Below are positions 5,099 through 7,053 of a DNA stretch of 11,570 nt, piece by piece. Location of the stretch: assembly GCA_009778295.1 (NCBI GenBank), contig WRKB01000288.1, positions 1-11,570 of the forward strand, given 5' to 3'. The DNA is from Betaproteobacteria bacterium (GTDB lineage: Bacteria; Desulfobacterota; Desulfovibrionia; Desulfovibrionales; Desulfovibrionaceae). The notes beneath the pieces were generated by a model. That model was not told where the DNA came from, searched no databases, and saw nothing but the letters and a program-made list of their open reading frames with translations. Every line of letters starts with the position of its first letter. Positions within the stretch are counted from its first letter, which is position 1. The position numbers and the translations under genes were made by a program.

Positions 5099-5107
5099 TG
5101 TGGAAAA
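5099..5107 (-). promoter_or_regulatory. DnaA-box-like site 1
   Basis: TGTGGAAAA is the reverse complement of TTTTCCACA, which fits the relaxed DnaA-box consensus TTWTNCACA completely. It lies 25 bases upstream of the proposed -35 element of the dnaA-like gene, where bound DnaA could modulate transcription. Confidence 0.5.
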
Positions 5108-5121
5108 CTCGCGCATAGATC

Positions 5122-5130
5122 TGTGGATTT
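5122..5130 (-). promoter_or_regulatory. DnaA-box-like site 2
   Basis: TGTGGATTT is the reverse complement of AAATCCACA, which differs from TTATCCACA at two positions. It is in the same orientation as site 1, 23 bases away (about two helical turns), and ends one base before the proposed -35. Weaker alone, but its spacing with site 1 and its position support it. Confidence 0.4.
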
Positions 5131-5131
5131 T

Positions 5132-5159
5132 TTGTCTGGCGGAATAGAAATTCTATACT
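5132..5159 (+). promoter_or_regulatory. Sigma70-type promoter for the dnaA-like gene
   Basis: The -35 is TTGTCT (5132-5137, four of six matches to TTGACA) and the -10 is TATACT (5154-5159, five of six to TATAAT), separated by 16 bases. Transcription should begin near 5166, giving a leader of about 160 bases that contains repeat copies 2 and 3. CTGACA-N17-TAATAA (5158-5186) is a weaker alternative. Confidence 0.5.
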
Positions 5160-5171
5160 GACAAGGGACTG

Positions 5172-5195
5172 CAAAAAAGCTAATAAGTCAATATG
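5172..5195 (+). repeat. Iteron-like repeat, copy 2
   Basis: The copy has CAAAAAAGCT at 5172-5181, a 6-base gap, then TCAATATG at 5188-5195. Both blocks are identical to copy 1, 132-134 bases away. The copy lies just downstream of the proposed transcription start, in the untranslated leader. Confidence 0.55.
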
Positions 5196-5252
5196 TACCA
5201 AAAAATACCTTATATTAAAGCATATTATAAAAGAATACCGCTGCAGGTAGTC

Positions 5253-5277: not shown

Positions 5278-5326
5278 GGAATTTCTGCTCTTGGCTGAAA
5301 AAAAAATTAGGGGTATTAGTTCATTC

Positions 5327-6682
5327 ATGAATGCTGACTGGCCTGCAATAGCAGAAAATCTTCAAAAAACGCTTGAACCTGGCGATTTCAAGGTCTGGAT
5401 TTCCCCGTTAGATGGAAAAGTCCAGGACGCTTGCGTATGTTTGTATGCGCCGAACGCTTTTGCGGCGAACTGGGTTCGTGAACATTTTTCCTGTGCTATT
5501 CGCGAAGCGGCGGCTGGAGCTCTGGGGCTTTCGTCTGATGCGATATCCCTGGTCGTTCGTTCGGAAAATATACAACCCGCAAGGCGTATCGTAAACCCCG
5601 ACGCTCCCGTTGCGCGTCCCCGTACCGAACAGGGAGTGTTGGCCGGGCTTGAGCCCCTTGAGCCTAGCTGGCGATTTTCATTTGAAGATTTTGTTGTCGG
5701 GCCGAGTAATGAGATGGCCTACGCGGCGGCCAAAGGACTGTGCGCCGATCTGGCCAGCGCGGGAACGCTTTTTGTCAGTGCCGCTTCCGGACTCGGTAAA
5801 ACCCACCTTGTCCAGGCAGTGGGAAAATGTCTGAGCGAAGAGAACATCCGCACGCGGTGCAAGATATGTTACCTCACTGCGGAAGAGTTCGCCTCCTGTT
5901 TCGTGACAGCGCTCAAGGCGCGCGATGTGGAAGGCTTTAAGACCCGATTGAGAAAGAGCGATGTGCTGTTGCTGGAGGATGTGCATTTTTTGCAACATAA
6001 GGGAAAAATGCAGGAAGAAGCCTTGGCGCTGATCAAAAGCCTACAGTCCAGGGGCAGCAGGTTGGTATTGACAAGTTCTTTCGCGCCGCGCGATCTGCGT
6101 CATATGGACTGTCAGCTTGTCTCGCTGTTTTGTGCGGGTTTGCTGGCGCACATGGCCAGTCCCACGCTGGAAACCCGGCGCTGCATTCTCCGGGAGAAGG
6201 CGCGCATACATCAGGTGATGCTGCCAGAACCCGTTTCCGAACTGCTTGCGACACGCATAACCAGTGATGTGCGTCAATTGGAAAGTTGTCTGAATAATCT
6301 GATTTTTAAGGCGCGTCTGCTCAACCGCCAAATCAGCCTGGATATGGCTTTGGAAGTGATTGACCAGTATGTGGAAACACGGTGTGAACTGGATATGGCC
6401 GCCATCGTCCGTCTGGTCTGTGACAGTTTCAAACTTTCCGAAATCCAGCTCACCTCGCGCAGCCGCAAGGGTGTGCACGTGCAGGCCAGAAGTACTATCT
6501 ATTACTTGGCCCGTAAACATACGCGGCTTTCTTTGCAGGAAATAGGAGATTGTTTTCATCGCCGTCATTCCAGCGTAATCAAGGGGATCAGCTTCTTTGA
6601 GCGGGAAATGCAGCGTGAATCGGCACTTGGGCGCCAACTGGCCCATGCCGTGGCGCTTGTTGAACGCAACGCCGGGGTATAA
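5327..6682 (+). CDS. Divergent DnaA-family protein (second-type DnaA with degenerate AAA+ site)
   Basis: The product is a DnaA-like protein of 451 residues from ATG 5327, with the expected order. Domain I (1-~75) contains MNADW, FKVWI and LYAPNAFAANWVREHF. A short linker leads to the AAA+ domain (~118-335) and domain IV (~355-451). Against E. coli DnaA, Walker A is AASGLGKT (152-159) instead of GGTGLGKT, Walker B is LLLEDVHF instead of LLIDDIQF, and sensor 1 is TSS instead of TSD. Box VII QLVSLF (263-268) lacks both arginines of RLKSRF, including the arginine finger. Sensor-2 Arg (VRQLE) is kept. The DNA-binding signature GGRDHTTV appears as HRRHSSV, one residue shorter. TTG 5291 would add 12 residues; ATG was chosen because the family normally begins about five residues before the Trp. 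No dnaN follows. It is probably a regulatory or specialised DnaA, not the main initiator. Confidence 0.85.
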   Translation: MNADWPAIAENLQKTLEPGDFKVWISPLDGKVQDACVCLYAPNAFAANWVREHFSCAIREAAAGALGLSSDAISLVVRSENIQPARRIVNPDAPVARPRTEQGVLAGLEPLEPSWRFSFEDFVVGPSNEMAYAAAKGLCADLASAGTLFVSAASGLGKTHLVQAVGKCLSEENIRTRCKICYLTAEEFASCFVTALKARDVEGFKTRLRKSDVLLLEDVHFLQHKGKMQEEALALIKSLQSRGSRLVLTSSFAPRDLRHMDCQLVSLFCAGLLAHMASPTLETRRCILREKARIHQVMLPEPVSELLATRITSDVRQLESCLNNLIFKARLLNRQISLDMALEVIDQYVETRCELDMAAIVRLVCDSFKLSEIQLTSRSRKGVHVQARSTIYYLARKHTRLSLQEIGDCFHRRHSSVIKGISFFEREMQRESALGRQLAHAVALVERNAGV

Positions 6683-6976: not shown

Positions 6977-7053
6977 AGGAGCGTAGCTCAGGTGGCTAGA
7001 GCACTTCCTTGACACGGAAGGGGTCAGCAGTTCAAGTCTGCTCGTTCCTACCA
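6977..7053 (+). tRNA. tRNA-Val (anticodon GAC)
   Basis: The 77-base tRNA has an encoded CCA (7051-7053). The acceptor arm AGGAGCG pairs with CGTTCCT (one G-T wobble). The D arm begins TAGCTCAGG. The anticodon stem CTTCC/GGAAG encloses TTGACAC, giving anticodon GAC at 7011-7013, which reads GUC and GUU valine codons. The T arm AGCAG-TTCAAGT-CTGCT is perfect. Its proximity to thrS appears to be a neighbour relation only, because it is not a threonine tRNA. Confidence 0.97.

Follow-up and report, generated by a model that had tools for sequence, protein, structure and literature searches.

A DnaA encoded away from dnaN, with altered nucleotide-sensing motifs, is the most widely kept DnaA among sampled Desulfovibrionales

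The DNA analysed here, henceforth the window, is a contig of 11,570 nucleotides (C288) from a genome assembly (G000) of 1.48 Mb in 298 contigs that is 65% complete. It carries a dnaA gene without linkage to dnaN, one of a class that we call W; dnaN-linked copies are called N. Window neighbours with a Pfam match encode MnmG, an amidohydrolase, a DUF6811 protein, a class II tRNA synthetase, IF-3 and L20, and a tRNA gene (Rfam) lies at 6977-7050, between dnaA and thrS-infC-rplT. The mnmG, thrS, infC and rplT genes were unmatched at all ten other W loci compared, and in the comparison of neighbours across ten W loci an mtaD-like gene was common only to the window and its sister species G001 (the G001 contig ends shortly past W, and the clustering of gene neighbours was muddied by antisense frames). 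The gene and the parts of its product are:

5327..6682, + strand: dnaA of the dnaN-unlinked class W, 451 aa (open reading frame, profile matches, class alignment)
5339..5512, + strand: domain I (DnaA_N), residues 5-62, equivalents of Trp6 and Phe46 retained (Pfam)
5672..6145, + strand: AAA+ core (Bac_DnaA), residues 116-273 (Pfam, predicted fold)
5780..5803, + strand: Walker A AASGLGKT, residues 152-159, Lys158 and Thr159 retained (alignment)
5975..5980, + strand: Walker B Glu217-Asp218, corresponding to E. coli Asp235-Asp236; Glu-Asp in 41/41 W proteins (alignment)
6071..6079, + strand: sensor 1 TSS, residues 249-251, with Ser at E. coli Asp269 (alignment)
6113..6130, + strand: box VII QLVSLF, residues 263-268, with Gln263 at Arg281 and Leu267 at Arg285, the arginine finger
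6272..6274, + strand: sensor 2 Arg316, corresponding to E. coli Arg334; retained in 41/41 W proteins (alignment)
6401..6589, + strand: domain IV (Bac_DnaA_C), residues 359-421 (Pfam, alignment)

An alternative in-frame TTG start at 5291 is possible, while the ATG at 5327 fits the class alignment.

A preliminary description of this gene had recognised all DnaA domains together with changes in the nucleotide-binding motifs, and both observations held. Pfam matched DnaA_N, Bac_DnaA and Bac_DnaA_C in that order, as it did all three families in 37/37 members of one DnaA alignment, and alignment to E. coli DnaA confirmed Walker A AASGLGKT for GGTGLGKT (both first glycines replaced by Ala; in G001 the first glycine alone is lost), Walker B LED for IDD, sensor 1 TSS for TSD and box VII QLVSLF for RLKSRF. 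Domain IV differs from that of E. coli by a one-residue gap, RRH for RDH and Lys for His439. The Walker A Lys and Thr, the second Walker B Asp and the sensor 2 Arg are retained. Both box VII arginines are absent, as had been claimed; since the box VII alignment to the solved DnaA structures of B. subtilis (8btg) and T. maritima (2z4r) is gapless, no small shift brings them back, and a displaced arginine is thereby ruled out.

The window protein thus resembles E. coli and B. subtilis DnaA in domain layout, AAA+ fold, Walker A Lys, sensor 2, H-motif, AID Arg227 and HTH, and its AlphaFold2 model (mean pLDDT 88.7) has 8btg, 8bv3 and 2z4r among its best structural matches (rmsd 1.4 to 8bv3_A and 1.8 to 2z4r_A). 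It differs from them in Glu235, Ser269, the missing Arg281 and Arg285, Lys439, the lack of dnaN linkage and a score below the cut-off of the DnaA model TIGR00362 (311.3 against 343.9 bits). Hda chains are also among its PDB matches, so that Hda/HdaA share the DnaA-like AAA+ fold; Hda, however, lacks domains I and IV, both of which are present in W, and the window protein scores 73.9 bits with the Hda model TIGR03420 (cut-off 194.8).

We compared the classes in an alignment of 137 rows, comprising 41 W, 24 W-like, 32 N and 38 proteins called canonical, E. coli DnaA and one fragment that was left out. Asp235 is found in 37/38 canonical, 30/32 N and 7/24 W-like proteins and in none of the 41 W proteins, all of which have Glu. 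Asp269 is present in 38/38 canonical proteins and 4/32 N and absent from all 41 W and 24 W-like proteins; Arg281 occurs in 36/38 canonical proteins, 3/32 N, 2/24 W-like and a single W of 41 (G005). The finger, Arg285, is kept more broadly (canonical 38/38, W-like 24/24, N 31/32, W 26/41). Glu235 and the loss of Asp269 (41/41 W each), together with the loss of Arg281 (40/41), are thus traits of a class and not decay, which speaks against their having been described as the disarming of one copy.

According to an excerpt of PMC5742627, E. coli DnaA-DnaA contacts involve Arg227, Leu290, Arg281, Lys243 and Arg285, single-stranded DNA is bound by Val211 and Arg245, Arg334 has a part in ATPase activity, and the very tight binding of nucleotide is owed in part to sensor 1. 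Many of these positions, and Trp6 with them, separate the two classes: Arg227 is found in 38/41 W versus 2/32 N, Lys243 in 40/41 versus 0/32, Val or Ile at 211 in 37/41 versus 5/32, Lys or Arg at 245 in 37/41 versus 5/32, Trp6 of domain I in 40/41 versus 0/32 and sensor 2 Arg334 in 41/41 versus 26/32. His434 is universal (41/41 W, 32/32 N), as are the Walker A Lys and Thr in W (41/41) and the Walker A Lys in N (32/32). At AID2 Leu290, W has Phe in 30/41 and Leu in 5/41 (including the window) and N retains Leu in 27/32, and W domain IV has Lys at His439 in 41/41 and Arg or Lys at Asp433 in 35/41. Taken with the E. coli residue roles, these counts suggest a DnaA that melts DNA but handles nucleotide differently in the case of W, and a nucleotide-binding DnaA without most of the melting residues in that of N.

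The preliminary description had expected a canonical dnaA beside dnaN elsewhere in the genome. A second dnaA does adjoin dnaN, at the start of contig C91 where the contig end cuts it, but this copy is far from canonical. It retains Walker A and B, the sensor 1 Asp and the finger, gives a partial Bac_DnaA match (49.5 bits) and carries Ala at Val211, Ile at Arg227, Cys at Lys243 and Asp at Arg245. The finger motif of N reads LRSRL in G000 and LRARL in G001, and Pfam recognised DnaA_N in 8/29 N proteins. N therefore belongs to the same family and genomes as W and retains Walker A/B and the finger, but unlike W it has mostly or wholly lost the H-motif, AID1, Lys243 and domain I Trp signatures and is fast-evolving. 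We take DVU0001 to be the dnaN-linked dnaA of D. vulgaris. This gene is among those with mutations rising in an evolution experiment, as described in an excerpt of PMC8319347.

A Bac_DnaA search of 39 genomes including G000 found W in 37 (G004 has a truncated piece and G012 none) and N in 31, with dnaN adjoining in every N locus read (the gap is 0.86 kb in G010). A larger order set comprised G000 and 90 genomes of 90% completeness or more; W scored above 540 bits in 89 of these 91, the misses being G137 (N only) and G153 (neither), and N-type matches, set apart from W here by score alone, were found with the N profile in 74, both types co-occurring in 73. W was the only match in 16 of the 89 W-bearing genomes (G007, G026, G029, G031, G032, G035, G100, G102, G104, G106, G108, G110, G112, G114, G120 and G123), including G031, a single-contig genome that is 99% complete. 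The N-only genomes are G012 (98% complete) and G137 (93%), in which assembly gaps are possible. Within 13.5-15 kb around dnaN in G007, G019 (74% complete and outside the 91-genome set), G026, G031, G032 and G035, neither the W nor the N profile matched any frame at E<=1, and gyrase genes, as we read them, lie downstream of dnaN in the five N-less loci whose gene listing was read. In G029 and G037 dnaN itself was not found, so the absence of N there says little. Among the N matches, that of G099 scores low (234 bits), and those of G134, G145, G152 and G154 (252-257 bits) are partial: in these four the frames are much longer (563-696 aa) and the profile covers just their second half, a hint that N is decaying or being remodelled further. 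The first contig starts at W in G107, G118, G136, G151 and G158 and at N in G097, G122 and G139, so assembly start points may sit on different paralogues.

Related proteins occur in the wider phylum, which from the order should be Desulfobacterota. A Bac_DnaA match was found in 56 of 59 sampled phylum genomes (including G000 and G078), and 17 of these 56 yielded a W-like protein and no other full-length DnaA (G043, G044, G052, G055, G058, G066, G067, G070, G074, G075, G076, G080, G082, G085, G090, G093 and G096), with additional weak matches in some of them, to frames of 165-314 aa. A W-like protein is accompanied by another DnaA in six genomes (G039, G053, G061, G071, G079 and G091) and by fragments in G042. 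In a tree from a quick search of 81 of the 137 rows, with long branches flagged, W forms one clade (support 100) inside a clade of W and W-like proteins (SH-aLRT 99). W-like proteins resemble W in lacking the first Walker A Gly (23/24), the sensor 1 Asp (24/24) and Arg281 (22/24) and in the one-residue domain IV gap (in the rows shown), and they differ from the window protein in keeping Arg285 (24/24), in a Walker B Glu in 17/24 and in His or Tyr at 439 (21/24). In the 12 of 17 W-like-only genomes checked, dnaN scored over the cut-off in all 12, was never within 48 kb of the W-like gene on the same contig and was thus not adjacent in 12/12 (G067 has a further dnaN match, below the cut-off, 34 kb from it). 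A strongly altered ATPase signature thus does not preclude a protein from being the sole DnaA found in its genome.

W is also the slower-changing copy. Across 435 pairs of 30 genomes with both copies, median identity was 49% for W, 36% for N and 52% for DnaN, and W identity exceeded N identity in 431 pairs. Within the window's genus the values were 80% for W, 35% for N (294 aligned residues of the cut copy) and 59% for DnaN (277 aligned residues). Comparison of the G000 and G001 W genes gave dN of 0.11, dS of 0.65-0.74 and dN/dS of 0.15-0.17, and the W gene is under purifying selection. A decayed pseudogene is thereby rejected, also on account of Glu235 in 41/41 and of the matches of the first order search, which have no stop inside the Bac_DnaA stretch. 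The W profile match spans one stop in 11/89 W genes, whose listed frames are about full length; this may be the end stop.

Since the sampled relatives retain W more faithfully than the dnaN-linked copy, W is probably a working initiator and not a disabled spare. We consider it somewhat probable that this initiator has weakened ATP coupling and acts in trans, with N as an accessory. We count in its favour the presence of W in 89/91 genomes, the 16/89 in which N was not found, the dnaN neighbourhoods free of DnaA-like frames, the joint W and W-like clade, the W-like-only genomes, the TTAYGCACA sites of G007 (see below), the retained melting residues, the identities and dN/dS; against it count published finger-mutant results, the Phe mostly found at Leu290, the N-only genomes, a skew-based origin nearer N or dnaN than W and the lack of a TTAYGCACA excess in G001 and G019. 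The preliminary interpretation, of a disarmed extra beside a normal main DnaA, finds no support in this distribution or in the non-canonical partner, and is partly supported as a whole; in the window's genus, whose W has lost the finger, W may still have a tuning role.

Under the favoured reading, W would be the resident Desulfovibrionales initiator, encoded away from dnaN and acting in trans at an origin that appears to lie near dnaN in three of four genomes checked. For DNA opening and helicase recruitment it would use the parts it keeps, namely domain I, the H-motif Val, the basic B-motif residue, Arg227, Lys243, sensor 2 and the DNA-binding domain. With its rebuilt nucleotide sensing (Glu in Walker B, the sensor 1 Asp and Arg281 both gone), assembly should be gated more loosely by ATP, and nucleotide exchanged faster, than in E. 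coli DnaA. The distribution of the classes in the sampled genomes, the residue conservation, the box element and the purifying selection are observations; the initiator role, the ATP behaviour and the autoregulation (see below) of W we infer. The standard model of origin opening has a DnaA filament assembled via ATP and the arginine finger, which an excerpt of PMC8287927 terms 'invariant'. The most widely kept DnaA of the order, which lacks Asp235, Asp269, Arg281 (40/41) and in several lineages the finger, is a set of natural mutants with which one can ask which parts of that model are needed, and a warning that a dnaN-adjacent dnaA is not always the main one. Among the matches listed, a literature search that covered subscription journals thinly found no paper on class W, which leaves novelty unproven.

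The position of the origin bears on a different assignment of roles, along the lines of the preliminary description: N would be the main initiator, and W, bound to origin boxes but unable to form an ATP filament, would act as a regulator that tunes or blocks initiation. The sign change of GC skew lies within about 85 kb of N in G016, within about 35 kb of it in G027, 0.25 Mb or more from N in G030 and between 2.90 and 3.38 Mb in G031, where dnaN is at 2.90; W is outside the skew change in all four, and these estimates are coarse (10-12 stretches of 20 kb per genome plus the dnaA and dnaN loci). The skew of G052 was noisy and gave no origin. The W gene itself, with its box element and AT-rich flank, was considered as the chromosomal origin and rejected for want of GC-skew support in the same four genomes. 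In G007 (W only), 4 of 20 TTAYGCACA sites fall within 0.95 kb upstream of dnaN, in a stretch of 31% GC, and in G020, 7 of 102 fall within 390 bases near N and dnaN (L054, G020:C8:53284-53672), a likely origin. The pattern was taken from these two stretches after seeing them, and forward versus reversed-control counts were 22/9 in G000, 20/11 in G007 and 102/36 in G020, with no excess over the control in G001 (11/13) and G019 (17/23). Clusters of TTATNCACA were rejected as a general mark of dnaN loci, being in clear excess in few of 37, foremost G007 and G020. Together, the skew and site data indicate that the origin tends to stay by dnaN and the better-kept dnaA lies elsewhere. An initiating N would fit its place next to dnaN and near the skew origin of G016 and G027, its Walker A Lys, Asp235, finger and Leu290, and the 15/41 W proteins without a finger; yet N was not found in 16/89 W genomes, has mostly lost the melting residues and diverges fast, W stands alone in G031, and W-like proteins are the sole full-length DnaA found in 17/56 genomes. 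We regard this assignment as unlikely.

Arg285 has been replaced in 15/41 W proteins, by Cys in five, Tyr in four, Leu in three (at the finger position of both the window and G001 proteins) and Gln in three. About six changes are placed on a W tree built with that column removed, of which the starred branches alone force three; from the alignment and tree, the loss is lineage-specific and later than the other W changes. Among the 16 N-less order genomes, eight have a W with Arg285 and eight a W without, with Gln in G026, G031, G035, G100, G104, G108 and G112 and Tyr in G029. The seven Gln genomes are all seven sampled members of genus g26, in which no second DnaA was found, and the eight finger-less, N-less W proteins have no arginine in the stretch aligned to E. 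coli 275-292. Finger loss in the window's genus is separate from that in g26. In the part of PMC8287927 drawn on here, strand separation was impaired when the finger was mutated in B. subtilis DnaA or in three Gram-negative DnaAs, and the wild-type Gram-negative proteins worked in ADP as well as in ATP. Because such mutants fail in strand separation, W of the window's genus may not unwind DNA alone, and this is the strongest result against its doing so. Its ATP-bridged self-assembly would have to be weak or to borrow the finger of N. We propose, tentatively and with less confidence than the favoured reading, that in g26 the chromosome is started by a DnaA without finger and sensor 1 Asp, and that in the window's genus N supplies the finger in trans, forming a two-subunit DnaA.

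A general division of labour, with mixed filaments in which N gives the ATP site and the finger and W the single-stranded DNA contacts and helicase recruitment, is to our minds a poor bet for the order as a whole. The losses of W and N are complementary, both copies occur in 73/91 genomes, and in the window's genus W lacks the finger that N has; W has nonetheless lost the finger without N in eight of the 16 N-less genomes, and N diverges quickly for an obligate partner.

N might instead be an Hda-like brake, a clamp-adjacent, finger-bearing and non-melting protein that drives ATP hydrolysis by W after initiation. Its location next to dnaN and its mostly retained finger, Walker motifs and sensor 2 (26/32), with the melting motifs lost, would suit such a role, but N keeps its DNA-binding domain (His434 32/32), a simple pattern scan of the N proteins gave no consistent clamp motif, and the altered Walker B of W may hydrolyse ATP poorly, so we rate this below the preceding alternatives. 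That W serves a separate replicon or regulon and not the chromosome origin is highly improbable: its domain IV does differ at contact residues (Lys at 439, Arg or Lys at 433), but none of the neighbours in the window that have a Pfam match is of plasmid or phage type, and W is nearly universal in the order and the only DnaA found in several genomes.

Returning to W as the probable initiator, the region ahead of the gene suggests how its expression may be set. It contains:

5099..5107, - strand: DnaA-box-like site TTTTCCACA, 228 bp upstream of the start codon, a position common to many W genes
5122..5130, - strand: second box-like site AAATCCACA, 23 bp from the first in the same orientation, with two mismatches to TTATNCACA
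5132..5159, + strand: promoter-like TTGTCT-16-TATACT, directly past the second site (consensus match only)

Of 40 W upstream regions, 23 have a minus-strand site with at most one mismatch to TTATNCACA that begins 219-232 bases ahead of the start codon (17 of these sites, including that of the window, are TTTTCCACA), and 17 have none there; the range was chosen after seeing the matches, starts were set by alignment to the window, and the G019 region is shorter. A strict pattern of paired sites 21-23 bases apart, searched in 12 whole genomes of which eight were preselected for an apparent upstream pair, gave seven matches in seven genomes, all directly upstream of W and none elsewhere, with zero in the reversed control and no match in the whole genomes of G000, G001, G022, G027 and G030. 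Single box sites also precede some W-like genes. Promoter-like matches numbered 5 in the scanned window stretch versus 2.1 in shuffles; past the box in 31 regions the mean best match was 7.6/12 against 7.5 in shuffles, which is weak overall, and an exact TTGACA stood 28-30 bases past the box in 7 of them. The simplest reading of the box element is a DnaA-controlled promoter, by which W is probably autoregulated. An AT-rich element near ATTTCAANANGTTA, presumably akin to the IHF site consensus, lies about 100-115 bases before many W starts, its window copy being a poor match at 5186-5197.
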